Source of the DNA: Microbulbifer guangxiensis
GTDB lineage: Bacteria > Pseudomonadota > Gammaproteobacteria > Pseudomonadales > Cellvibrionaceae
Direction of reading: 5' to 3'
DNA length: 64,000 nucleotides
NCBI RefSeq assembly: GCF_021729075.1
Contig: NZ_JAJSAQ010000001.1
Location: 877,997-941,996 of the forward strand
The position numbers and the translations under genes were made by a program. The notes under the pieces were generated by a model. That model saw only the letters and a list, made by a program, of their open reading frames with translations. It searched no databases and was not told where the DNA came from. Below are positions 24,011 through 37,845 of the stretch, piece by piece; the stretch's first letter is position 1, and every line of letters begins with the position of its first letter.

Positions 24011-24122
24011 GGCGCTGGTGCTGGTAGCCTCTTGCGAGACACGCCGTGAATACATCCCTGTAGGCTTGTCGGCGAGGTCCCTCTCGCCGACAGTCCCGCA
24101 AGAGGCTACCAGCACCAGCGCC
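24011..24122 (+). repeat. Bulged-hairpin repeat element, copy A
   Basis: Outer inverted repeat of 26 bp, perfect (24011–24036 with 24097–24122). Inside is an inner hairpin GTCGGCGAG / CTCGCCGAC (24068–24076, 24083–24091) with loop GTCCCT. The 31 nt between outer-left and inner-left carries GTGAATACATCCCTGTAGG. Only 5 nt separate the inner and outer helices on the other side. Tag-first orientation on plus. It is in the leuD–leuB spacer. Confidence 0.92.
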
Positions 24123-24193
24123 TTCGCATTTAAGTTCAGCGCAATATCGAACTGCGCGGTTCGACGTCCAGCTCTTTGAAGCGAAGGCTTCGA

Positions 24194-24289
24194 TGGTGAG
24201 GGACCTTTGCCAGACCTTCACCGCCATGGATGGCGGTGCAGAGCCCCCAGGGATGGGTTTACGGCGTGTCTGGCAAAGATCCCTCTCCA
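24194..24289 (-). repeat. Bulged-hairpin repeat element, copy B
   Basis: Outer helix 24198–24215 with 24268–24285 (18 bp, one mismatch), extended imperfectly by TGG/CCA to 24194–24289. Inner hairpin CACCGCCA / TGGCGGTG at 24219–24238. The 29 nt bulge follows the inner hairpin, so the tag reads on the minus strand as GTAAACCCATCCCTGGGGG, the most diverged of the six. It is 71 bp from copy A, in opposite orientation. Confidence 0.82.
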
Positions 24290-24343
24290 GTGGAGCCGCC
24301 CGGGGCCCTGCCCTTACTGCCCGGGCCACTGATTCGTAAAAAC

Positions 24344-24991
24344 CTATTTCACCGCATCAAACAACCAGGGTGCCTGCTCACGGCGCTTGGCTTCATAAGT
24401 GCGGATATCGTCGGCGTCTTCCAGTGTCAGGCCGATATCATCGAGGCCGTTCAGCAGACAGTGCTTGCGGAAGGCGTCAACCTCAAAGGCGATGGCCTCG
24501 CCATTCGGCTTGATCACCTGCTGCTTTTCCAGGTCGATGGTCAGCTCGTAACCTTCCTGGGCATACATTTCTTCAAACAACTGAGCGACGACGTCCTCGT
24601 CCAGCACGATCGGCAGCAAGCCATTCTTGAAGCAGTTGTTGAAGAAGATATCGGCGAAGCTCGGCGCGATGATGGCGCGAAAACCGAAATCGTCCAGCGC
24701 CCAGGGCGCGTGTTCACGGCTGGAACCGCAGCCGAAATTCTTCCGCGCCAGCAGCACCGAGGCGCCCTGGTAACGGGGAAAATTCAGCGGAAAATCCGGG
24801 TTCAACGGCCGGTTCGAGCAATCCTGTCCGGGAAAACCCTCGTCCAGGTAACGCAGCTCATCGAAAAGGTTGGGGCCAAAACCGGTGCGCTTGATGGACT
24901 TCAGGAACTGCTTCGGGATGATCAGGTCCGTATCCACGTTGGCGCGATCCATCGGTGCCACCAGGCCCTTATGCTGGGTAAAGGCTTTCAT
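24344..24991 (-). CDS. leuD: 3-Isopropylmalate dehydratase small subunit
   Basis: Small subunit of the [4Fe-4S] isomerase that converts 2- to 3-isopropylmalate. The 215-residue protein has the substrate-loop region [13 protein letters not shown] near the N-terminus and the swivelling-domain motif [13 protein letters not shown]. It starts 2 bp after the leuC stop, so the two are co-translated, as expected for subunits of one enzyme. The next gene in the pathway, leuB, is 379 bp away. Confidence 0.95.
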
Positions 24992-24993
24992 CG

Positions 24994-26445
24994 TTAAATC
25001 TCCTCTCCGCTCAGGGCTTCTTGCCGGGTGAACTCCCGCACATCGACGAAGTGGCCGGCAATCGCGGCAGCGGCCGCCATGCTGGGGCTGACCAGGTGTG
25101 TGCGTCCGCCGTAACCCTGGCGACCCTCGAAATTGCGGTTGGAAGTGGAGGCACAGTGCTCACCGGCGCCCAGCTTGTCCGCATTCATCGCCAGACACAT
25201 GGAGCAGGAGGGCTCGCGCCATTCAAAGCCGGCATCGATAAAGATCTCGTGCAGGCCCTCTTTCTCCGCCTGGGCCTTCACCGCCTGGGAACCGGGCACG
25301 ATTAATACCTGCTTCACGCTGTCCGCCTTCTGGCGACCTTTGGCCACCGCAGCTGCTGCACGCAAGTCCTCAATGCGGGAGTTGGTGCAGGAACCGATGA
25401 ACACGCGGTCCAGCTTGATATCGGTAATTTTCTGGCCGGCTTCGAGCCCCATGTATTCCAGTGCCCGCTCGATACCCGTGCGCCGGGTGGCATCGGCCTC
25501 AGCCGCCGGGTCTGGCACAGTCGCGCTCACCGGTGCCACCATTTCCGGGGAAGTCCCCCAGCTCACCTGCGGCTCGATTTCCTCGGCCTTCAGTTCCACG
25601 ACGGCATCGAACACCGCGTCGTCATCCGAGTGCAGCTGGTTCCAGGCTGCCACCGCCTTTTCCCACTGCGCACCTTTCGGCGCGTAGGGCTTGTCTTTTA
25701 CATAGTCGAGTGTGACCTGGTCCACCGCTACCATGCCGGCGCGGGCACCGGCTTCGATGGCCATGTTGCAGATGGTCATGCGCCCTTCCATGGACAGGCT
25801 GCGGATCGCCGAGCCACCGAATTCGATGGCATAGCCGGTACCACCGGCCGTGCCGATCTTGCCGATGATCGCCAGCACCACGTCCTTGGCGGTAACACCG
25901 GGTCCGAGCTCCCCGTCGACGCGCACCAGCATGTTCTTCATTTTCTTCTGGATCAGGCACTGGGTGGCCATCACGTGCTCGACTTCGGAAGTGCCGATAC
26001 CGTGTGCCAGCGCACCGAGGGCGCCGTGGGTCGATGTGTGGGAGTCCCCGCAGACCACGGTCATGCCCGGCAGGGTGGCGCCGGTCTCGGGGCCGATTAC
26101 ATGCACGATGCCCTGCCCCGGTTCATTGATGCCGAACTGCACAACGTCAAAGTCGCGGCAATTCTCATCCAGGGTCTGGACCTGGATGCGGGACACCTCG
26201 TCGCGGATACCGGCCACACCGCCGGCACGCTCGGCAGCCTCGGAGGGCACATTGTGATCAGGGGTCGCCACCAGCGAGTCCTTGCGCCAGAGCTGGCGGC
26301 CCGCCAGGCGCAGGCCTTCGAATGCCTGCGGGGAAGTCACCTCGTGAATCAGGTGACGGTCGATGTAGATCAGTGCAGTGCCGTCTTCGCGGCTCTTGAC
26401 CAGATGGTCCTGCCAGAGTTTGTCGTAGAGCGTCTGCCCGGCCAT
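24994..26445 (-). CDS. leuC: 3-Isopropylmalate dehydratase large subunit
   Basis: Large, iron-sulfur subunit of isopropylmalate isomerase, 483 residues. Cluster cysteines are visible in [13 protein letters not shown] and in [12 protein letters not shown]. Other aconitase-family sequence is [29 protein letters not shown]. The ATG at 26445 is preceded by GAGGAGAG. It is the first gene of the leucine set and is divergent from the LysR gene, with the shared control region at 26446–26577. Confidence 0.96.
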
Positions 26446-26490
26446 GGCCGTCTCTCCTCTTTTTTGGATGGCAGCAGTCTAAGGGGAGGC

Positions 26491-26522
26491 ATTGAATAAC
26501 ATCAATTTATATTTATTATAAA
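26491..26522. promoter_or_regulatory. Divergent leuC / lysR control region with LysR-type site
   Basis: A markedly A+T-rich stretch in a GC-rich background. It contains the inverted repeat ATTGA-N6-TCAAT (26491–26506), which also fits the LysR box T-N11-A (T26492, A26504). TTGAAT (26492) and TATAAA (26517) on plus are 19 bp apart, a weak promoter for the regulator. The location suggests binding by the adjacent LysR protein; that is inference. Confidence 0.5.
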
Positions 26523-26577
26523 GAGCAGTCCTAAAGGGAATGCATATTCCGGCACACCAACAGGGTAGTGAAACACG

Positions 26578-27477
26578 ATGGAAATCCAGTGGCTGAGGGC
26601 CTTCCTCAGCATCGCCGAACAGGGCTCTGTCTCCGAGGCGGCAGAGCACCTGCACCTGACCCAGCCCGCTGTCAGCAAGCGCCTGGCGGCGCTGGAGCAA
26701 CAGCTGGGCACTCCGCTTTTCGACCGCATCGGTCGCAAGCTGCAGCTGACCGATGCCGGCCGCGCCCTGCTGCCGCGGGCCCGGCATATCCTCAACGAGG
26801 TGAGCGACGCCGAACGCGAGTTGCGCAGCCTCGGTGGCGAGGTGAGTGGCAGCCTGCGTATCGCCACCAGCCACCACGTGGGGCTCCACCACCTGCCGCC
26901 GGTACTCAGGGAGTACAGCAACCGCTACCCCGAAGTGGCCCTGGATATCGATTTCGTGGATTCGGAGCAGGCCTACGAGGCGCTGATGGCGGGGGAATAT
27001 GAATTGGCAGTGGTCACCCTGGCCCTGAAGGAATACCCGAACCTCAACGCCCGGGTGGTCTGGCCCGACCCCTGCGTGGTGGTGGCAGCACCTGACCACC
27101 CGCTGGCGCAGATGACCACTCTCGACCTGCCGGACCTGGCCCGCTATCCGGCCATCCTGCCGGATCTCAACACCTACACAGGCCGCCTGATCAAGCGGGA
27201 ATTCGACGCCCAGGGCCTCAAGCTCACTGCCAAACTGGCCACCAACTTCCTCGAGACCATCAAGATGATGGCCGGGGTAGGCCTGGGCTGGAGCGTACTG
27301 CCGCGCACGCTGGTGGACGAATCACTGGCCGAACTGCCCGTCCCGCAGTTAAACGTGGTGCGCAACCTCGGGGTCATCAACCACCGCGCCCGCACACTGA
27401 GCAATGCCGCCAGCGCCCTGCAGCAGATGCTCCTGGACACGGCGTGCCACCAGGAACCACCCAAAACCGGCACTTGA
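26578..27477 (+). CDS. LysR-family transcriptional regulator, probable leu regulator
   Basis: A 299-residue LysR protein. The N-terminal winged helix-turn-helix covers residues 1–60 (MEIQWLRAFLSIAEQGSVSE … LTQPAVSKRLAALEQQLG), then the linker helix and a periplasmic-binding-like effector domain. It is divergent from leuC with 132 bp between, the usual layout for a regulator controlling its neighbour. The equivalent gene beside leuC in Pseudomonas is also a LysR regulator. The effector is likely a leucine-pathway intermediate, but this is inference. Confidence 0.88.
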   Translation: MEIQWLRAFLSIAEQGSVSEAAEHLHLTQPAVSKRLAALEQQLGTPLFDRIGRKLQLTDAGRALLPRARHILNEVSDAERELRSLGGEVSGSLRIATSHHVGLHHLPPVLREYSNRYPEVALDIDFVDSEQAYEALMAGEYELAVVTLALKEYPNLNARVVWPDPCVVVAAPDHPLAQMTTLDLPDLARYPAILPDLNTYTGRLIKREFDAQGLKLTAKLATNFLETIKMMAGVGLGWSVLPRTLVDESLAELPVPQLNVVRNLGVINHRARTLSNAASALQQMLLDTACHQEPPKTGT

Positions 27478-27584
27478 TCACGGAAATTGCCGAATCTGTG
27501 CACTGGACACCGCGCCGTCATGAAAAAATTAGTAAACTACGCGCCAAAACAAGAACTGGCCACATCTGACACGGAGTGAGAACC

Positions 27585-28322
27585 ATGAAAAAAATAACCC
27601 TGGCCCTCGCGGTCGCCCTCGCCAGCGGCACTGCCAGCGCGGACACCATCCTCGGCTTTGACGCCAGCGCCGGCGTCTGGATGCCGTCCTACACCGGCGG
27701 CATCGGCAACGACGGCTTCGATATCGAGGAGTTTGCGCCCGCTGAGGACAACATCACCTTCATCCAGGCGGCGCTGGAACACCCGATCCCGCTGATCCCG
27801 AACATTCTGGTTGCCCACAGCAGCATCGAGACCGACGGCATGGCCCAGCTGGATGAGTTCGTGACCTTCGGTGACGAGACCTTCCTGATCGGCAGTGAAG
27901 TAAATGCCGACCTGAACCTGAGCCACACCGACGCCACGCTCTACTACGAACTGCTGGATAACTGGGTGAACCTCGACATCGGCCTCACTGCACGCCAGTA
28001 CGCTGGTGAGCTGAATGTCTCCAGCGCACTGCAGGCCGAGACCGTCGAACTGTCCGGCTACCTGCCGATGGCCTACGGCATGGCCCGTTTCGACCTGCCC
28101 TTCACCGGCTGGTCCATCGTGGCCCAGGGCAACGGCACCGGTTACAAGGGTGACACCATCACCGACTTCACCGCCAAGGTCCGCTGGGACTTCGTACCCG
28201 CGCTGGACTTCGCCATCGAGGCCGGTTACCGCAGCATGTCCCTCGAACTGCAGGAGCTGGACGAACTCCAGAGCGACCTCGAAATCAAGGGCCCCTACCT
28301 GGGTCTGAACCTGCACCTGTAA
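27585..28322 (+). CDS. TIGR04219-type outer membrane protein
   Basis: The 245-residue protein begins MKKITLALAVALASGTASAD, a signal peptide cleaved after ASA. The rest alternates hydrophobic and polar residues in strands of an 8-stranded-type beta-barrel and ends in an outer-membrane-like terminal strand (GPYLGLNLHL). Sequence style such as ADTILGFDASAGVWMPSYTGGIG is typical of the TIGR04219 family, whose function is unknown. GGAGTGAG precedes the ATG; a GTG 9 bp upstream is rejected. A strong terminator follows. Confidence 0.82.
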   Translation: MKKITLALAVALASGTASADTILGFDASAGVWMPSYTGGIGNDGFDIEEFAPAEDNITFIQAALEHPIPLIPNILVAHSSIETDGMAQLDEFVTFGDETFLIGSEVNADLNLSHTDATLYYELLDNWVNLDIGLTARQYAGELNVSSALQAETVELSGYLPMAYGMARFDLPFTGWSIVAQGNGTGYKGDTITDFTAKVRWDFVPALDFAIEAGYRSMSLELQELDELQSDLEIKGPYLGLNLHL

Positions 28323-28350
28323 GCCTTCACCGGCTCCGGGTACGGACAAG

Positions 28351-28377
28351 AAAGGCGGCCATTGGCCGCCTTTTTTG
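28351..28377 (+). terminator. terminator after the outer membrane protein gene
   Basis: AAGGCGGCC and GGCCGCCTT (28353–28361, 28365–28373), loop of 3, then a T-run to 28377. It lies 30 bp past the stop at 28322. Confidence 0.92.
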
Positions 28378-28504
28378 CTTCTGCCTCCTGCAATCCGCCA
28401 AACAGGCGAGACACTACCAACAAGCTGCCGAGCACATCGTGAGCACAAGAACAAAAAACTGGAGATCTGCCTTTGCTTGAAGAGAGCCGGTAGCCGGAAT
28501 CGAA

Positions 28505-28614
28505 GGCAAGGCGCCTGCACGGGTATTTCGAACCGTCGGCGCCATGGACGGCGCCGACGGAGCGTACACGGATGTATTTACAGCGTTTCGAAATACCCGT
28601 GCAGGTGCTTTGCC
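28505..28614 (-). repeat. Bulged-hairpin repeat element, copy C
   Basis: Outer helix of 28 bp (28505–28532 with 28587–28614), broken only by two positions that become G-U pairs in plus-strand RNA. Inner hairpin CCGTCGGCGCC / GGCGCCGACGG (28533–28543, 28550–28560), loop ATGGAC (GTCCAT on the minus strand). The inner helix abuts the outer directly on one side; the 26 nt bulge reads on minus as GTAAATACATCCGTGTACGC. Confidence 0.92.
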
Positions 28615-28722
28615 GCCACCACACCTCCCTGCAACGGGAACAGGGGTTTACCACCTTCGGTTCTCCCGCTCCGATTTGGTCCAACAGGAGCAGTGCTACA
28701 TAACTGAAGTAGCGTCGAAGCA

Positions 28723-28815
28723 CCTGGCGAAGACTTTCGAAAACGCACAAGTACTTCCCTGTATGCTCCGGCGGCGCCGTCCATGGCGCCGACGGTTTCG
28801 AAAGTCTTCGCCAGG
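28723..28815 (+). repeat. Bulged-hairpin repeat element, copy D
   Basis: Perfect 20 bp outer helix (28723–28742 with 28796–28815). Inner hairpin CCGGCGGCGCC / GGCGCCGACGG (28768–28778, 28785–28795, one mismatch), loop GTCCAT. The 25 nt bulge contains CAAGTACTTCCCTGTATGC. It is 108 bp from copy C, in the opposite orientation, between the outer membrane protein and aroC. Confidence 0.9.
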
Positions 28816-28871
28816 CACTCCGCCTTCGCATCACGCTTTTCACGCTGAACCGCAGGGATACGACGGATTGT

Positions 28872-29963
28872 TCAGCCGCCGACAGTCACAACCCCCGACT
28901 TCACATCGGCGTTCTGTGCCCGCTGGCGCAGCACATGATCCATCAGCACCAGTGCCATCATCGCCTCGGCGATCGGTGTCGCACGGATGCCCACGCAGGG
29001 ATCGTGGCGACCTTTGGTCACGACTTCGATCGGGTTGCCATGGGTATCGATGCTCCTGCCGGGAATGCGCAGGCTGGAAGTGGGTTTCAGGGCGATATGG
29101 GCGATCAGCTCCTGGCCACTGGAGATCCCCCCCAGCACGCCGCCGGCGTGATTGGAGAGGAAGCCGTCCGGGGTGATTTCATCGCGGTGCTCGGTGCCCT
29201 TCTGCTCCACGCAGGCGAAACCGGCCCCGATCTCCACGCCTTTTACCGCATTGATACTCATCAGGGCATGGGCCAGATCCGCATCCAGGCGATCGAAAAT
29301 GGGCTCGCCCAGGCCCGCCGGGACGCCAGAGGCGTGGACAGAGATGCGCGCACCGATCGAGTTGCCCTCCTTGATCAGCGCCTGCATGTAGGCCTCCATC
29401 TCAGGCACCTTGTCCGCGTCCGGGCAGAAAAAGGGGTTCTGGTCCACCTGGTCCCAGTCCAGCTTCTCCACCTTGATCGGTCCCAGCTGGGAAAGATAAC
29501 CGCGCACCTCGATACCCAGCCGCTCCCGCAACCACTTCTTGGCGATGGCACCGGCAGCCACACGCATGGCCGTCTCGCGGGCCGAAGAGCGACCGCCGCC
29601 GCGGTAGTCGCGTACACCGTACTTTTGCCAGTAGGTGTAATCCGCGTGGGCCGGGCGCACCTGTTCTGCGATGTTGGCGTAATCCTTGGAACGCTGGTCA
29701 GTATTCTCGATCAGCAGGCCGATTGGGGTCCCGGTGGTCTTACCCTCGAACACCCCGGAGAGGATTTTCACCTCGTCACCCTCGCGGCGCTGGGTGGTGT
29801 AGCGGGAGGTGCCGGGTTTGCGGCGGTCCAGGTCCCCTTGCAGGTCTTCGACAGAAATTTCCAGTCCGGGCGGGCAGCCGTCCACGATACAGCCCAGTGC
29901 CGGACCGTGGCTCTCGCCGAACGTGGTGACACAGAAGAGCTTGCCAAAGGTGTTGCCCGACAT
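28872..29963 (-). CDS. aroC: Chorismate synthase
   Basis: Converts EPSP to chorismate with reduced FMN, the last common aromatic step. The start [20 protein letters not shown] is the canonical N-terminus; an in-frame start at 30053 adds 30 unrelated residues and is rejected. The protein is 363 residues. Signature motifs are [37 protein letters not shown] and, near the C-terminus, [16 protein letters not shown]. It lies downstream of prmB, as in many gammaproteobacteria. Confidence 0.97.
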
Positions 29964-30096
29964 ACGCGAAGGTCCCTGCCTGCTGGATTTTTTATTGGGT
30001 GAAAACCGCGCATTATAAAGGATTAGCCGCCGGTGCGGCCGCGCGCCGGGCAAAAAGCACAGATCACTTCGCCCGGCCCGCCGACAAAGAGAGGAA

Positions 30097-31038
30097 TTAC
30101 TCTTCTGCGAAGTGGGCGTGGTAGGCGAGTAGCTCCTCGCGGCTGATCACGAAAACCCCGTGACCACCATCCTCGAATTCCGGCCACAGGAACGGCACCT
30201 CCGGGAAGGTGCGCTCCAGCGCCTCCCAGCTGTTGCCGACTTCACACACCAGGATGCCCTCCGGCTGCAGGTGGTTGGCCGCCTCCCGCAACAACCGGCG
30301 GGTAAAGTCGAGGCCGTCATCGCCGGAACCCAGTGCAATCTCCGGCTCGGCCTGGTACTCCGCCGGCATCTCGGCAAGATCGCGGGCATCCACGTACGGG
30401 GGATTGCAGACGATCAGCTCGTAGCTGCACCCTTCCAGTCCCGCAAACAGATCTGACTGCACAGCGCGGACCCGCTCGTTGAGCTGCTGCCGGTTGATGT
30501 TGATTTGCGCCACTTCCACCGCGCCGGAAGAAATGTCACTGAGGTCAACCCGCGCTTCCGGAAAGGTCTCCGCGCAGGCGATACCGATACAGCCACTGCC
30601 GCAACAGAGATCGAGGATCGCCAGTGGCTCCACCGTCAGCCACGGCTGAAATTCCTGGCGAATCAGCTCGGCGATGGGTGAGCGCGGCACCAGCACACGA
30701 CTGTCGACATAGAAGGTCATATCGCAGAAGTGGGCCTCATGGGTAAGGTAGGCCGCGGGCAGCCGCTCGCTCACCCGCCGCTGCAGGATCGCCATGACCT
30801 CCCGCCGCTCGCTCATGGTCAGCCGGGCCTGGAGCACTTCCGGCTTGCTGTCCATCGGCAGGTGCAGGGTGTGCATCACCAGCGTGAGTGCCTCATCCCA
30901 GGCATTGTCGGTGCCATGGCCGAACCAGAGACCAGCCTCGTTGAAACGGCTGGTTCCCCAGCGTACGAAATCCAGCAGAGTGCTGAGGTCGCGAAGGTTT
31001 TCCGGGTTTCCCGGCGCCGATTCACGGTTTTCGGTCAT
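30097..31038 (-). CDS. prmB: Ribosomal protein L3 N5-glutamine methyltransferase
   Basis: SAM-dependent enzyme that methylates a glutamine of ribosomal protein L3. The 313-residue start [10 protein letters not shown] follows AAGGATAG; a longer start at 31089 is rejected. The catalytic NPPY motif is in [23 protein letters not shown] and the SAM loop in [17 protein letters not shown]. The YVD-RDL sequence after NPPY is more like PrmB than PrmC. It precedes aroC with 133 bp between, the usual prmB–aroC pairing. Confidence 0.92.
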
Positions 31039-31226
31039 TGGCTCTATCCTTGAAGAGCACGGGCCAGCAGGCCCGCGACGCCCCGCCACGTGATCCGCCG
31101 GCGTTGGCGCAAAGTAAAACAGTCCTGGAGCGCCGACACCTGTGCGCCGGATCTTTACTCAAAGGTGACAAACGCTTAGGGTAGCGCACCCCGCCCCCGG
31201 GCAGTGAAAGTAGACAGCAGGACCAG

Positions 31227-31766
31227 ATGAAAGAACATTACGCGCGAATTATTGAGGCAATCGGCGAGGATCTGCAACGCCCGGGCCTGAGAGATACGCC
31301 CGAACGTGCGGCCAAGGCCATGGCCTACCTCACCAGGGGCTATGAGCAGACGGTGGAAGAAGTGGTCAACGATGCGCTCTTCCCCTCCGATTGCAGCGAG
31401 ATGGTACTGGTCAAGGACATCGAACTCTACTCCCTCTGCGAGCACCATATGCTGCCGTTTATCGGTAAGGCGCACGTTGCCTATATTCCCGACGGTAAGG
31501 TGCTGGGGCTGTCCAAGATTGCCCGCATCGTCGACATGTTTGCCCGCCGCCTGCAGATTCAGGAGCAGCTGACAGTGCAGGTCGCCGAGACCATTCAGCG
31601 CGTTACCGGTGCCGCAGGCGTCGGCGTCATCATTGAGGCCAAGCACATGTGCATGATGATGCGCGGCGTCGAAAAGCAGAATTCCGTGATGAAGACCTCC
31701 GCCATGCTGGGTTCCTTCCGCGACCAGCAGGCCACCCGTACCGAGTTCCTCTCCCTGATCCGCTGA
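31227..31766 (+). CDS. folE: GTP cyclohydrolase I
   Basis: Converts GTP to dihydroneopterin triphosphate, the first step to folate. The 179-residue protein has the zinc ligands Cys71 and His74 ([12 protein letters not shown]) and Cys142 ([10 protein letters not shown]), plus [21 protein letters not shown]. This is the zinc-dependent type (FolE, FolE1). A tautomerase gene follows 70 bp later on the same strand. It is divergent from prmB. Confidence 0.96.
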
Positions 31767-31836
31767 GGTCTAAGATTGCATGCTGGGGCACATGGATGTG
31801 TCCGCCGGCCAGAGCCCTGTTCAAGGAGTGAAGACA

Positions 31837-32181
31837 ATGCCCCACCTGGTGATCGAGTACGCCGAAAAACTCGAGGAATCAATTTCCATCCCCGCCCTGG
31901 TCAGTTCTGCCCAGGAAGCCATGAACCGCTCCGGGCTTTTCGCCCCACACACCATCAAGACCCGCGCCATTCCGTTCCGCCACTTTATTGCCGGCGAGAA
32001 GGGTGGCAGTTTCATCCATGCAGAAGTGCGCCTGTTCGAGGGGCGCAGTGAGCGGGACCGGGAGTCGTTGAGTTCCACCGTGTTCAACACCCTGTGCCAG
32101 TTCGCAGACGGTGTACCGGCGGTGACGGTCGAAGTGCGTGAAATGGATCCGAGCTGTTATTCAAAGCGCCTGCCGTTCTAG
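31837..32181 (+). CDS. 5-Carboxymethyl-2-hydroxymuconate delta-isomerase-like tautomerase
   Basis: The 114-residue protein begins MPHLVIEYAEKLEESI; after Met removal Pro1 is the catalytic base of the tautomerase superfamily. An AAGGAG site just upstream fixes this start. Matching CHMI features include ACA-length and RAIPFRHFIAGEKGGSFIHAEVRL. CHMI acts in homoprotocatechuate breakdown, but no other hpa gene is nearby, so this may be a stand-alone family member with a different substrate. It follows folE on the same strand. Confidence 0.82.
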   Translation: MPHLVIEYAEKLEESISIPALVSSAQEAMNRSGLFAPHTIKTRAIPFRHFIAGEKGGSFIHAEVRLFEGRSERDRESLSSTVFNTLCQFADGVPAVTVEVREMDPSCYSKRLPF

Positions 32182-32185
32182 GCGT

Positions 32186-33052
32186 TCAGCTTTCCTGCCC
32201 GCGCAGAAAGGGTCCGATCCAATCGGCGACTTCAGCGGCTCCGCCCTCCATATGCAGGTGGTGGCCGCCGTCCATTTCCCGCACGGCAATATTATCCCGC
32301 CCTGACAACAGCGGCCGCATGCGCTCGATCATGTCCAGAATTCCATCCCGAGCCAGCACCAGCCGTACCGGCATGGTGACCCGATCGAGAAACGCCCGGA
32401 CCTGGGGACTGGTGAGTTTGCCGGTGGAAGTGGCCATCAGGCGCGGATCGCTGCTCCAGGTCAAGCGCTGACCAAGGTCGCGGGTGCCCCGCTGTACCAG
32501 CAGCAGCGCGGCCTGGTCCGAGAGGCGGAACATCCCATTCTTGCGCGCCTCCACGGCCTCATCCAGCGTGGCGAACTCCCGCGGTTTGCGGTGCGCATAT
32601 CGGGCCCGCTGGGCGATCGCCCGCGCCAGATTCTCCGGCGCCTCCTCCGCCCTGGCCGGCGGTGGCACCAGCCCATCGATCAGCGCCAGGCGGCAGATGC
32701 GATCCGGGAAGGTGCCGGCAGTGAGCATGGCAGCGACGGCACCGCGGGAATGGGCGAGCAGGGAGAACCGGCGCCATCCCAGCGCATGCGTGATGCCGAT
32801 GACATCCTCCACCTCTTCCCAGATGTTGTAGTTGGCATCGCCGGAACGATGATAGCTGCGACCGTGGCCAGCCATATCCACTGCTACCAGGTCGAGCCCA
32901 TCGAGCAGCGGAGCCAGGCTGGCGAAGCTGGCGCAGTTGTCCAACCAGCCGTGCAGTGCCAGCACCGGCTCGCCCCCCTCGCTGCCGTAGCGACGGGCGG
33001 CGATGGCGCGGCCATCGAATTCGAGGGTAATTTCCCGGAAAATCTCAGACAT
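32186..33052 (-). CDS. Alpha/beta hydrolase
   Basis: A 288-residue alpha/beta-hydrolase fold protein. The oxyanion region is LALHGWLDNCASF, the nucleophile elbow is LLAHSRGAVAAML (Ser in A-H-S-R-G rather than the usual G-H-S-x-G), and the terminal catalytic histidine is likely in MDGGHHLHMEG. An acid near the DGILDM segment would complete the triad. Substrate unknown. Tail-to-tail with the tautomerase gene, only 4 bp apart; an open gap of 117 bp separates it from sixA. Confidence 0.85.
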   Translation of the reverse strand: MSEIFREITLEFDGRAIAARRYGSEGGEPVLALHGWLDNCASFASLAPLLDGLDLVAVDMAGHGRSYHRSGDANYNIWEEVEDVIGITHALGWRRFSLLAHSRGAVAAMLTAGTFPDRICRLALIDGLVPPPARAEEAPENLARAIAQRARYAHRKPREFATLDEAVEARKNGMFRLSDQAALLLVQRGTRDLGQRLTWSSDPRLMATSTGKLTSPQVRAFLDRVTMPVRLVLARDGILDMIERMRPLLSGRDNIAVREMDGGHHLHMEGGAAEVADWIGPFLRGQES

Positions 33053-33169
33053 GGTGCAACGGTCCAGCAGAAAGAACCGCCATGCTGCCAGCCACGTTTG
33101 CAGCTAGCAATGACCATGCAGCTCAGCGGCGATGGTCTCAGGCCATGGGGAAAGCGCGCAACGCCGGGC

Positions 33170-33625
33170 CTACTTTTCAGCGTGCTGCAGCCACTCCAGC
33201 TCGGCGCAGTTGTTGGCCCAGACCTCGGCGCTGAGGCAGGCCAGCGAGGACGTGCCCATCGGGTGCTGGTTACCGCTACCGCACAGGCCATTGACGAGAC
33301 TGCCCACCAGCGGCTGGTGGCTGACCAACAGGAGCGGGAAATCCTGGGCTGCCGCGAGTGCGTCCAGTACCACCGAGGGTGGCGTGTCACCCAACAGAAC
33401 CGGCTCGGTCCGCACCGGCAGGCCGAGTAGTTCTGCCGCGATTGCCGCAGTCTGCTGGGTGCGCACGAATGGACTCGCCCAGATGGCACGCACTTCGGCA
33501 AGCTCCGTTGCCCGGGCCCGACACAGGGCCGCCACCTGCTGGCGGCCGTGTTCAGTGAGTTCCCGGGAGGAATCGTCACCCCGATGGGGTTCCGCCTGGC
33601 CGTGGCGCAAAATCAGTAGCTTCAC
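33170..33625 (-). CDS. sixA: Phosphohistidine phosphatase
   Basis: The 151-residue protein belongs to the histidine phosphatase superfamily, with the active-site RHG at residues 7–9 (KLLILRHGQAE) and the second conserved region LLVSHQPLVGSLV. SixA removes phosphate from the HPt domain of ArcB or NPr in E. coli; the target here is unknown. The start is GTG, preceded by GGAGGTAACG. It lies 21 bp after the DUF4389 gene in a gpsA–DUF4389–sixA set. Confidence 0.87.
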   Translation of the reverse strand: MKLLILRHGQAEPHRGDDSSRELTEHGRQQVAALCRARATELAEVRAIWASPFVRTQQTAAIAAELLGLPVRTEPVLLGDTPPSVVLDALAAAQDFPLLLVSHQPLVGSLVNGLCGSGNQHPMGTSSLACLSAEVWANNCAELEWLQHAEK

Positions 33626-33646
33626 CGTTACCTCCCGCAGGGCAAA

Positions 33647-34180
33647 TCAGCTTTTGTCGCTATCGCCTGACGCATTTTTCTTGGACGAACTTTTGCCGCT
33701 GCCCTTGCTGCCAGCTCCGGCATCACTTTCCTTTTCCACGTCCTCGGCAGCCTTTTCTACGTCTTCGGCCTCCAGTTCAACCGGAACGTAGGCACCGGCA
33801 CCCTTCGCCCCTTTATCTTCACTCTCGCGCTCATCGTCTTCTTCTGCCACGACTTCGCCATTCACTTCCTCGGCGCTCTCGTAGCCAGACAGGTCTTCCA
33901 CCTCCGACTCCGGCCATTCGGAGAAGGGAAATGGCTTCTCTTCCGAGTTGTAGATCAGGAACTGCAGGGTCTGATAGACATAGGAGGCGATCTGGTCCCC
34001 CAGCCGGCGCAGGTTATCGTTGGCACTGCCGGTAAACAGGGCGAACAGGAACTGCAGCACCACCACAGCCAGCATCACTACGCCGGCGATTTCCAGCAGA
34101 ATGAAAAAGAGCACCATGTAGAGCAGGCGCATCCACTGGTTGCCGGAGGAAATGTTCTTTTTGAGTTCTTCGTTATCCAT
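33647..34180 (-). CDS. DUF4389 membrane protein
   Basis: A 177-residue protein with one long or two short TM segments at about 18–50 (LLYMVLFFILLEIAGVVML), the DUF4389 core ending near LIYNSEEKPFPFSEWP, then a charged, low-complexity tail (Glu/Asp/Lys/Ser-rich). The core is conserved in marine gammaproteobacteria and has no known function. It starts 12 bp after gpsA, so co-transcription with gpsA and sixA is likely. Confidence 0.83.
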   Translation of the reverse strand: MDNEELKKNISSGNQWMRLLYMVLFFILLEIAGVVMLAVVVLQFLFALFTGSANDNLRRLGDQIASYVYQTLQFLIYNSEEKPFPFSEWPESEVEDLSGYESAEEVNGEVVAEEDDERESEDKGAKGAGAYVPVELEAEDVEKAAEDVEKESDAGAGSKGSGKSSSKKNASGDSDKS

Positions 34181-34192
34181 GTGCGATCACCA

Positions 34193-35227
34193 TCAGGGTT
34201 TGGCCGAGTAGGCCACGTCAAAAGTTTGCGCGCCGGACATCAGATCCCTGATCACCTCGGGAATCGGGCGCTCTTCAAATAATATGGCGTGAATTGCCGA
34301 AACCAAGGGCATGTACACCCCGAGTTCGTCTGCCTTGCGCTTGATCAGGCGTACTGTGTTCACCCCTTCGGCGACCTGACCGATTTCTGCGACGGCCTGT
34401 TCCAGCGGCATCCCCTTGCCCACCAGGTAGCCGACACGGTAGTTGCGGCTCAGGTCGGAAGAGCAGGTAAGAATCAGGTCGCCGACGCCGGCGAGCCCGA
34501 TAAAGGTCATGGGATCCGCCCCCATCGCCTCGGCGAGACGCATCATTTCCGCCAATGCACGGGTAATCAACAGGCTGGTGGTGTTGCCGCCGCGCCCCAG
34601 TGCCTTGGCCATGCCGGTGACAATGGCGTAGATATTTTTCAGTGCCCCGGCCAGTTCCACCCCAAACACATCATTGCTGGAATAGACACGGAAAGTCTCG
34701 GAATGCAGAACATTCTGGATGGTCTTGCAGAGTTCCTCGTGCTCACTGGCAATCACCGTTGCGGTGTAATGCCCCTCGACAATTTCTTTCGCAAAATTCG
34801 GGCCACTCAACACTCCCACCCGCATACCGCTGGTCTCTTCCAGCAGAATGTCGCTCATCAGGTGGAAACTGTCGTGCTCGATCCCCTTGGTGGTGGATAT
34901 CAGCATGGTGCCGGGCGCAAGCATGGGGGCAACGGTCTTGACCACCTGCCGGAAAGATTTGCTGGGGATGGCCACAAAGACAATCCTGCAGTCCTTCACC
35001 GCCGCTTGCAGGTCGCTGGTGATAGTCAACTCGGGATGCAGGGGCACTCCGGGCAGGTAATAGGTATTCTCGCGCAGCTGGCGGCAGCTGGCGGCTTTTT
35101 CAGGGTCACGCATCCACTGGCGCGTATCATGCCCGTTGCCGGCAACAATATTGGCAATGGCAGTACCAAAACTGCCGCCACCCAGTACGGCAATGGAAAC
35201 AGGCGCTGAAGTTTCCGTCTGTGTCAT
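34193..35227 (-). CDS. gpsA: Glycerol-3-phosphate dehydrogenase [NAD(P)+]
   Basis: Makes sn-glycerol 3-phosphate for phospholipids. The 344-residue protein has the Rossmann motif [21 protein letters not shown], the catalytic lysine region [22 protein letters not shown] and the [14 protein letters not shown] segment. The ATG at 35227 has no strong ribosome site. It is first of the gpsA–DUF4389–sixA set. Confidence 0.95.
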
Positions 35228-35416
35228 AAAAGCCCGGGGTAAGTCAGAGGGAAGTTGTCGTTGTTGGGCCGATTATAGAGGCCAAGAGGAGGCAGCCCAA
35301 TGAACCCGGAAAAAAAGTGCGGACTCCGTTCACTTCACAACCAGTAAACGTCATTTCCCGCACAATTCGCGTGATATTTCATCGGACGGGGGAAGAAACA
35401 GCCGGCATCAGGGCAC

Positions 35417-35443
35417 AAAAAAGGGCGGCACCAGGCCGCCCTT
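35417..35443 (-). terminator. terminator after htpG
   Basis: AAGGGCGGC (35421–35429) and GCCGCCCTT (35435–35443) with a 5 nt loop; on the minus strand it ends in a T-run. It lies 24 bp past the htpG stop. Confidence 0.9.
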
Positions 35444-35466
35444 CCCCGCTGATTTGCCGATACGGC

Positions 35467-37380
35467 TCAGCCGTTCAGCTCCAGCAACAGCGTATTGAGA
35501 CGCCGCACATAGTCCGCCGGGTCGGCGAGCTGATTGCCCGCCGCCAGGTTGGCCTGATCCATCAGGATGTTGGTCAGGTCCGCAAAACGGTCCTCGTCCT
35601 GCTCCTGGTCCAGGCGCTGTACCAGCGGGTGGGAGGGGTTGACCTCGAAAATCGGCTTGGCCTCCGGCAGCGCCTGACCAGCCTGCTCCAGGATACGGCG
35701 CATCTGCGGGCCCATATCCTGCTCGCTGACCACCAGGCAGGCCGGTGAATCCACCAGCCGGGTGGTGGCGCGTACATCTTCTACACGGTTCTTCAGTACT
35801 TCCTTGACCCGCTCCACCAGCGCGCCGGCCTGCTCTTCTACCTTCTCGCGCTCGGCCTTGTCTTCCTCGCTCTCGGCCTCGCCCAGGTCCAGGGCACCTT
35901 TGGCCACATCCTGGAACGGCTTGCCGTCAAACTCGTGCATATGGCCCACGAACCACTCGTCGATCTGGTCGGTGAGCAGCAGCACTTCGATACCCTTCTT
36001 GCGGAACACTTCCAGGTACGGGCTGGATTTGGCGGTGGCAAAGTTGTCGGCGCAGACATAGTAGATGTATTTCTGCCCATCTTTCATCCGGCCGGCATAG
36101 TCCTCCAGGGACTGGTCCTGCTTCGGCTCGTCGGTATGGGTGGAGGAGAAACGCAGCAGCTTGGCAATCTTCTCCTTGTTGGCGAAGTCCTCTGCCGGAC
36201 CCTCTTTGAGGACATTGCCGAACAGGTCCCAGAACTTCTGGTACTCGTCCGCATCTTTGCTCGCCAGTTTGCCCAGCATGTCCAGCACGCGCTTGGTCAG
36301 CGCACTCTTGATCGCGTCGGTGTTGCGATCCTTCTGCAGGATTTCGCGGGACACGTTCAGCGGCAGATCGTTGGAGTCCAGCACACCCTTGACGAAGCGC
36401 AGGTACAGCGGCAGGAACTGCTCGGCGTCGTCCATGATGAAAGTGCGCTGCACATACAGCTTCAGGCCGCGGGCAGCGTCACGCTGGTACAGGTCGAACG
36501 GCGCACGGCCGGGGATGTACAGCAGGCTGGTGTAATCCAGCTTGCCCTCGACGCGGTTATGGCTCCAGGTGAGCGGATCATCGAAATCGTGGGCGATGTG
36601 CTTGTAGAATTCCTTGTACTCCTCGGACTTGATGTCGCTGCGGGAGCGGGTCCACAGGGCCTGGGCAGCGTTGACCGCTTCGAATTCCGGGGCCTTGTCT
36701 TCCTTCTCCTCACCCTCTGCCGCCGGAGCCTCCTCCTTCAGCATCTCCACCGGCAGGGCGATATGGTCGGAGTACTTCTTGATGATGGAGCGCAGGCGCC
36801 AGCCGTCGGCGAACTCTTTCGCGTCCTCTTTCAGGTGCAGGACGACACGGGTGCCGCGCTGCGGCCACTCGACGTTCTCCACCGAGTACTCGGCCTCACC
36901 ACTGCACTCCCAGTGCACGCCCTGGTCGGTACCGGCACCAGCACGGCGGGTAAAGACCTCGACCCGGTCAGCAACGATAAACGCGGAGTAGAAGCCCACA
37001 CCGAACTGGCCAATCAGGTGCGCGTCCTTCTTCTGGTCGCCGGTCAGGTTCTGCATGAAGCTGGCCGTACCGGAGCGGGCAATGGTACCCAGGTTCTCGA
37101 TCACCTCGTCGCGGCTCATGCCGATACCGTTGTCGGTGATGCTGATGGTGCCCTCTTCCTTATCGAACTCGATGCGAATACGCAGGTCCGGGTCCTCCTC
37201 CAGCAACTCGGGCCTGGAGAGGGCCTCGAAGCGCAGCTTGTCAGCGGCATCGGAGGCGTTGGATACCAGCTCGCGCAGGAAAATCTCCTTGTTGGAGTAA
37301 AGCGAGTGGATCATCAGGTGCAGCAGCTGCTTGGCTTCCGTCTGGAAACCGTGGCGCTCTTTGTGGGCCTCAACGGTCAT
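35467..37380 (-). CDS. htpG: Hsp90-family chaperone HtpG
   Basis: A 637-residue cytosolic ATP-dependent chaperone. The N-terminal GHKL ATPase contains [23 protein letters not shown] and [14 protein letters not shown], then the middle domain and the C-terminal dimerisation domain. Full length for bacterial HtpG. ATG start at 37380. The upstream region 37381–37500 must hold its promoter; the repeat element E begins 121 bp upstream of the start, so the elements lie behind the promoter rather than within the gene. Confidence 0.96.
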
Positions 37381-37500
37381 AAATTGGTCTCCCCGTACAC
37401 TTCATTCGGAACAGGGAGCAGATATAGGGGTCACTGGCGGGGTTTCAAGGCCTACATGGGGCTCCACGAATACTCCTTCGGGCCCTCGGGGCGGCACGGC

Positions 37501-37594
37501 ACCCGGTGCGCCCTTTCGAAAACGCATGAATACATCCCTGTAGCTCCGTCCGCGCCGTCCCTGGCGCGGACGGTTTCGAAAGGGCGCACCGGGT
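37501..37594 (+). repeat. Bulged-hairpin repeat element, copy E
   Basis: Perfect 21 bp outer helix (37501–37521 with 37574–37594), perfect 11 bp inner helix CCGTCCGCGCC / GGCGCGGACGG (37546–37556, 37563–37573), loop GTCCCT. The inner helix abuts the outer with no gap on the right; the 24 nt bulge on the left carries ATGAATACATCCCTGTAG. The cleanest copy, tag-first on plus. Confidence 0.95.
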
Positions 37595-37684
37595 ACCACG
37601 CCTTAGCGGATCGCTGAGAAAGACAAAGCAATCGCCAGCAGGTCAGGCCCAGAGCGACTGCCGCGCAATACGCTGCGCAGGCCG

Positions 37685-37784
37685 GCTGGCGGGGGTGGGG
37701 ATTCAAAACTGTCGATGCCAGGGACGGCATCGACAGAGCTACAGGGAGGTATTCATGCGGTTTTGAAGCCCCACCCCCGCCAGC
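37685..37784 (-). repeat. Bulged-hairpin repeat element, copy F
   Basis: Outer helix of 25 bp with one mismatch (37685–37709 with 37760–37784). Inner helix TGTCGATGCC / GGCATCGACA (37710–37719, 37726–37735), loop AGGGAC (GTCCCT on minus). The 24 nt bulge reads on minus as ATGAATACCTCCCTGTAG. It is 90 bp from copy E, in opposite orientation, and its right end is 62 bp from the serine hydrolase stop. Confidence 0.95.
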
Positions 37785-37845
37785 AGGCCGCCCGGGAGTC
37801 AGCTTTGGGCACCATTAACGGGGATCAGGGGAACAATCCCGAGAA

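Follow-up and report, generated by a model that had tools for sequence, protein, structure and literature searches.

The window analysed here, a stretch of 64,000 nucleotides (nt) of the Microbulbifer guangxiensis genome (contig NZ_JAJSAQ010000001.1), contains six copies (A to F) of a palindromic element that folds into two GGA-bearing hairpins on a long outer helix. The six sites probably represent a small, non-autonomous mobile repeat of the YPAL/RU-2 type, the conserved payload of which would be an RNA with a dual CsrA/RsmA-binding site. The main traits of the element are (i) a common fold, (ii) covariation of its stems, (iii) conserved GGA loops, (iv) an outer-helix bias toward G-U over A-C on the ANGGA strand, (v) a copy number that is high and uneven between genomes of the genus, (vi) orthologous gaps that are filled in some genomes and empty in others, (vii) a core shared with YPAL, and (viii) in one relative (genome G005), enclosure in a miniature inverted-repeat transposable element (MITE).

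On the strand that reads ANGGA, the element consists of an outer arm, hairpin 1 with its ANGGAY hexaloop, the linker AGC, hairpin 2 (UACA-NGGA-NGUA), about five free bases, and the second outer arm. This architecture is a three-way junction, in which a long and variable outer helix of approximately 25-32 bp leads to both hairpins; the stem of hairpin 1 is GC-rich, and hairpin 2 is short. The preliminary description of this DNA had read the complementary strand, that of GAATACATCCCTGTAG, and had placed a bulge on one side of the helix. This bulge is not borne out, because the insertion is a second stem-loop on the other strand with a covarying stem, and an unpaired bulge is rejected on that ground. 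The claim of six sites with one fold holds: all six have been folded, and a covariance model, R1, built from eight genome copies (E and F among them), recovers A to F with 62.6-126.8 bits, its four further window matches (31-40 bits) being reverse-strand shadows of C to F. A separate regular-expression-plus-arm search, which is also motif-based, returns the same six copies in the 64 kb and nothing further. The outer helices extend slightly farther than first described in B, D, E, and F. The six copies are as follows, with the strand being the one that reads ANGGA.

Element A, 24011..24122, minus strand: hairpin-1 loop AGGGAC at 24077-24082; hairpin-2 site TACAGGGATGTA at 24051-24062; GGA-GGA spacing 23 nt; between leuD and leuB; R1 92.4 bits.
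Element B, 24186..24297, plus strand: hairpin-1 loop ATGGAT at 24226-24231; hairpin-2 site CCCAGGGATGGG at 24246-24257, with a covarying stem; GGA-GGA spacing 23 nt; partner of A, antisense to leuD-leuB; R1 62.6 bits.
Element C, 28505..28614, plus strand: hairpin-1 loop ATGGAC at 28544-28549; hairpin-2 site TACACGGATGTA at 28565-28576; GGA-GGA spacing 24 nt; 3' of an outer-membrane protein open reading frame (ORF) at 27576-28322 (plus strand); R1 96.8 bits.
Element D, 28716..28822, minus strand: hairpin-1 loop ATGGAC at 28779-28784; hairpin-2 site TACAGGGAAGTA at 28752-28763; GGA-GGA spacing 24 nt; 3' of aroC (minus strand, 28872-30053); R1 99 bits.
Element E, 37493..37602, minus strand: hairpin-1 loop AGGGAC at 37557-37562; hairpin-2 site TACAGGGATGTA at 37531-37542; GGA-GGA spacing 23 nt; upstream of htpG (minus strand); R1 126.8 bits, with E in the alignment of R1 itself.
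Element F, 37680..37789, plus strand: hairpin-1 loop AGGGAC at 37720-37725; hairpin-2 site TACAGGGAGGTA at 37740-37751; GGA-GGA spacing 23 nt; partner of E; R1 116.2 bits, with F in the alignment of R1 itself.

The members of the pairs A/B and E/F are directed away from each other, and C and D are directed at each other. In A/B and E/F, both 5' ends face a middle piece of approximately 60-80 nt (24123-24185 and 37603-37679), which in A/B carries GCCTTCGC...GCGAAGGC at its two ends. Some copies depart from the common layout. One copy in the same genome (L035:1249) is without the first GGA (loop ATAGAC), and another (L072) is without one of the hairpins. A subset carries an extra GGGGGGCGCCTAGC-like insert 3' of hairpin 2, as seen at L076:2502-2629, at L113 (genome G012), and in some rows of both larger alignments described below; the elements with this insert, which come from M. 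guangxiensis and from related and distant genomes, may form a subfamily with a third arm.

Both larger alignments had been fitted to the structure beforehand. One holds 95 rows from 78 of the 80 listed loci of a 19-base genome scan, retrieved with a pattern in which hairpin 2 is fixed, and the other holds 108 rows from relatives, six of them reverse-strand shadows. All 46 modelled pairs show changes on both sides in both sets. Paired cells make up 90.8% (95 rows) and 94.6% (108 rows) of these prefitted alignments versus 52.9% and 60.1% after shuffling; none of the 500 shuffles reaches the observed value, and sliding the alignments gives 42.7% at most. The outer helices of 45 M. guangxiensis elements, scored without a preference for wobbles, comprise 1207 Watson-Crick pairs, 87 G-U, 12 A-C, 79 other mismatches, and 3 gaps. 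On the ANGGA strand, the two larger alignments give outer-helix ratios of G-U to A-C of 159:39 and 188:24; one tandem wobble is common to many copies, so the wobbles are partly non-independent, and the 108-row set minus the two columns concerned gives 112:17. One strand is maintained in a foldable form, and the sequence of the outer helix drifts with its pairing retained.

The two hairpins closely resemble CsrA/RsmA-type binding sites and, as judged from sequence and fold, are probably such sites. The CsrA consensus derived by systematic evolution of ligands by exponential enrichment (SELEX) is RUACARGGAUGU, in which ACA and GGA are invariant; RsmE complexes display an ANGGAN hexaloop, and CsrA bridges two sites that are 10-63 nt apart, with an optimum above 18 nt (PMC7652899). 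Hairpin 2 of A and E conforms to the SELEX consensus save for the first base, and hairpin 2 of B, C, D, and F has at least one deviation from it in stem or loop and retains CA-NGGA-NG. Hairpin 1 bears the ANGGAY hexaloop in all six window copies, at a GGA-GGA spacing of 23-24 nt; each of these copies presents A(N)GGA in a hairpin loop and two sites at bridging distance. Among the 108 matches from relatives, hairpin 1 has an ANGGAN hexaloop in 85 and an AGGA pentaloop in another 10, and hairpin 2 has CA-NGGA-NG (N free) in 97; the model behind these counts was itself trained with loops of this type, which weakens them as evidence for CsrA. The genome encodes one copy of csrA, with L4 and R44.

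The element is found in at least 45 places of the M. guangxiensis genome at 40 bits or more (40 sources searched). This number is a lower bound, as 150 of the 401 candidates in the genome were scored and B was not among the matches. The relatives also contain matches, which occur in 16 of 23 genomes including M. guangxiensis, 14 of 16 within the genus, and their number per genome of the genus ranges from 0 to at least 145, reverse-strand shadows included. Further copies, the absence of which would have spoken against the preliminary description, are thus present in the genome and beyond. A 16-mer taken from that description has 35 genome matches at up to two mismatches versus none for a reversed control; two of the 35 (L015 and L023) are unlike the element when folded. 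Whether copies are always intergenic had been raised as well: by a home-made gene caller, 41 of 45 are clear of called ORFs and four overlap one. The overlap of A with an ORF arises via a far-upstream leuB start. By the same gene calls, convergent gaps hold 20 of the 45 elements, tandem gaps hold 12 in sense and 9 in antisense orientation, a divergent gap holds one, and the context of three is unclear. Counted per gap, the 38 element-bearing gaps comprise 17 tandem, 17 convergent, 1 divergent, and 3 unclear. The background for comparison, which is small, is the set of window gaps of 100 bp or more, with 19 tandem, 3 convergent, and 5 divergent. The median distance from the end of the upstream sense gene to the element is 74 nt.

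The occupancy of orthologous gaps differs between genomes. The A/B pair fills the leuD-leuB gap in 3 of 21 genomes (M. guangxiensis, G012, and G027), and the gap upstream of htpG is filled in 2 of 21. Like YPAL, the element has many dispersed intergenic copies with filled and empty sites. In genome G013, the htpG upstream gap (L144) holds a long palindrome with element-like arms and flanks that lacks both GGA hairpins, which suggests that arms can outlast the core.

The ends of a mobile unit are sharply defined in G005, in which 20 copies, the best-scoring rather than a random sample, share one unit. Its ends, GGAACCTCTGATTAATTCGC or close variants, are recognisable in 18 of the 20, with a unit length of 210-213 bp; the 4 bp just outside are identical in 14 of these 18 and the next 4 bp, used as a control, in none, while the left copy of the duplication fits YTAR, a target typical of IS5, in 16 of 18. 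These 4-bp duplications belong to the MITE that encloses the element. Fragments of an IS5-family transposase occur at G005 contig ends, with the related end GGAACCTCTGATCAA next to those in L387 and L388; an intact autonomous copy was not seen. The G005 copies have the traits of an IS5-type MITE, namely terminal inverted repeats with a short duplication of the target, and the matching transposase is represented by these fragments. As an exact pattern, the MITE end occurs 119 times in G005 and not at all in seven other genomes of the genus, including M. guangxiensis, which indicates that in G005 this MITE has captured the element. The window copies are without these MITE ends, with no exact match in the M. 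guangxiensis genome and no GGAACCTCTG in those of its loci that were examined.

Relation of the element to YPAL is close to certain. A 19-base variant yielded at least 117 stretches in a scan of 84,980 species genomes, and of the 80 listed stretches, 78 are titled as gammaproteobacteria, the other two being a Rhodobacteraceae metagenome-assembled genome (MAG) and an unplaced Proteobacteria MAG. The genera among the listed stretches include Rheinheimera, Yersinia, Pantoea, Pseudomonas, Halopseudomonas, Marinobacter, Methylotuvimicrobium, Lysobacter, Luteimonas, Sedimenticola, Cellvibrio, and others. Three copies from Yersinia similis (L245, L268, and L305) fold as the window copies do, score 50.7, 45, and 48.3 bits with R1, and match by eye the sequence of RU-2, also called YPAL (Yersinia palindromic sequence), printed in PMC2759123. 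The preliminary description had recognised no named family with this layout, and this match supplies one. YPAL is a 167-168-bp mobile repeat that generates duplications of 3-26 bp and targets sites within or adjoining dyad symmetry (PMC2229807). A known repeat family thereby explains the element in part: YPAL has been described from Yersinia and Erwinia, and the consulted portions of its descriptions mention neither CsrA nor the broad distribution of the element. No link between YPAL and CsrA was found among the listed matches in open-access full texts, and CsrA is without mention in PMC2229807, PMC2267715, PMC10969869, and PMC5193452.

The arms of the element change in a manner that keeps them paired. 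In the G005 copies (L343-L362), hypervariability is confined to a box of six positions in the arm (model columns 17-22), which nearly always change together with their partners, with 391 double versus 17 single differences over 190 non-independent copy pairs; the rest of the element is far more constant. Outside the arms, 2 of 148 sites distinguish the copies L350 and L360, yet the pair shows two double changes in columns 17-22. Likewise, columns 17-23 vary among 20 copies of genome G001 (L363-L382), and 140 of 140 cells are Watson-Crick. Such paired changes could stem from strong selection or from hairpin-templated copying. Wobbles at columns 10-11 are retained in 15-19 of the 20 copies of each set, so not all mismatches are corrected.

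Orientation within a gap can also differ between genomes. At approximately 1500-1610 of L096 (genome G010) and L097 (genome G003), the same gap, with flanks that are 94.7% identical over 3.1 kb, holds the element in reversed orientation, and the arms differ by matched changes. Among the fetched G012 and G013 loci, 29 M. guangxiensis elements have an orthologous gap, and for 27 of them the G012 gap is occupied by an element: by manual tally, 19 are in the same orientation, 7 in the opposite one (C, D, L050, L060, L062, L064, and L075), and 1 is unclear (L065). For L058, the counterpart is in G013 only and has the same orientation; the L069 gap holds no element by the element search, yet R1 scores 64 bits there (L191). 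In C, the bases that adjoin the element are reversed too, and its opposite orientation possibly results from inversion of the whole unit or from a second insertion. Flipping of the core within fixed arms, first suggested by L096 and L097, is set aside on account of these adjoining bases.

Several observations weigh against a CsrA-binding RNA. Tandem gaps show no orientation preference (12 sense, 9 antisense), so that the neighbouring genes would leave many copies unread on the ANGGA strand; sense orientation as proof of a role in mRNA is likewise unsupported by this split. The stem of hairpin 1 is long and GC-rich, and very stable stems may impede CsrA binding (PMC7652899). This stem shows no bias of G-U over A-C (13:25 and 22:26 in the two larger sets), which leaves the RNA reading unsupported there, and Ysr224, an Rfam family with the core, is annotated on the strand opposite to ANGGA. 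The bias in the outer helix has a second possible origin as well, given that a folded single strand of DNA might likewise favor G-T over A-C mismatches. This last point also serves the rather unlikely alternative of an element that is mobile only, in which loops and stems would be conserved for recognition of the folded single DNA strand by a protein of transposition or replication, and the resemblance to CsrA sites would have arisen by convergence. The 0 to at least 145 matches within the genus, the syntenic gaps filled in 3 and 2 of 21 genomes, the G005 MITE with its duplications, and the tolerance of either orientation would all fit such an element. However, the mobile ends in G005 are MITE terminal repeats outside the element, with no exact occurrence in the seven other genomes, and no hairpin transposase is known to ask for invariant ACA, GGA, and GU with a free N. 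That combination is a requirement of CsrA (PMC7652899).

A role of the long helix without CsrA, as a stabiliser in the 3' untranslated region, a terminator, or an RNase III hairpin, is improbable. The 17 convergent and single divergent gaps among the 38 that bear elements and the median of 74 nt to the end of the upstream sense gene are consistent with such a role, and repeats of this type are said to be determinants of mRNA stability in Yersinia (PMC2267715). It leaves the conservation of the GGA loops unaccounted for, however, and the copies read have no T-run 3' of the 3' arm, nor is the sense strand preferred in tandem gaps. Very little speaks for a REP/BIME-type repeat mobilised by a RAYT transposase, which is largely refuted. 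Inverted pairs are present, and GTAG lies 5' of the inner hairpin on the strand read in the preliminary description, but GTAG is lost where the stem of hairpin 2 covaries (e.g., in B), and many copies are single. PF01797 has no match in the genome, in a search that was positive in 5 of 14 control genomes, and REP/RAYT is rejected for this reason. Integron attC sites were likewise considered and dropped.

If a copy of the proposed CsrA-binding repeat were transcribed on its ANGGA strand, one CsrA dimer could bridge both loops, which lie 23-24 nt apart. The CsrA-bound hairpin might then shield the upstream mRNA at its 3' end or divert CsrA that would otherwise bind elsewhere; taken together, the copies would act as a dispersed Csr sponge with a size that varies between species. 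A broader proposal, put forward tentatively, is that a mobile RNA element found across Gammaproteobacteria brings with it a ready dual CsrA site, such that transposition adds a dispersed Csr sponge or regulon tag to a lineage or removes it. Both outer arms would then be altered in a single event, hairpin-templated copying being one possible route, and the structure would stay nearly perfect as the sequence drifts. Should CsrA bind the copies, a selfish-looking repeat would rewire or buffer a global regulator, and YPAL would gain a molecular partner. The range from 0 to more than 100 matches among species of one genus is a natural dose series, and the paired arm changes in near-identical copies offer a rare window on the upkeep of long palindromes in bacterial chromosomes.

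The element can be compared with known mobile repeats and regulatory RNAs. With YPAL/RU-2, it shares the core (an ANGGA hairpin and a GAGCCTACATGGATGTATTTACGGCGT-type hairpin 2) and, by eye, the hairpin layout; both are intergenic, high in copy number, mobile, and palindromic. In contrast, the arms and flanks are unrelated, and the ends over 167-168 bp are not common to both, so the window copies are YPAL-type relatives rather than YPAL itself. Rfam has nothing in the window at gathering level, with sub-threshold matches only. Its family Ysr224 (RF02770), a Yersinia small RNA in Rfam, has a consensus in which hairpin 2, the linker, and hairpin 1 appear in complementary form, and scores 16.6-28.8 bits here on the strand opposite to ANGGA versus a gathering score of 70. 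The Ysr224 core is seen at window positions 28530-28631 (minus strand) and at L009:1534-1644 (minus strand). Given that the core is shared on the opposite strand, the Ysr224 entry may derive from a YPAL copy. TwoAYGGAY (RF01731, Rfam clan CL00106), for which PMC4333381 proposes CsrA binding, likewise has two A(Y)GGA(Y) hairpins beneath an outer stem; its best score is 30.5 bits versus a gathering score of 43, with five genome matches at E values up to 10. The CsrA/RsmA-binding RNAs CsrB, RsmY, RsmZ, and their kin share with the element several ANGGA-hexaloop hairpins per RNA at a spacing in the bridging range. Unlike these RNAs, the element has two sites per copy, is mobile, and is dispersed over the chromosome in many copies.

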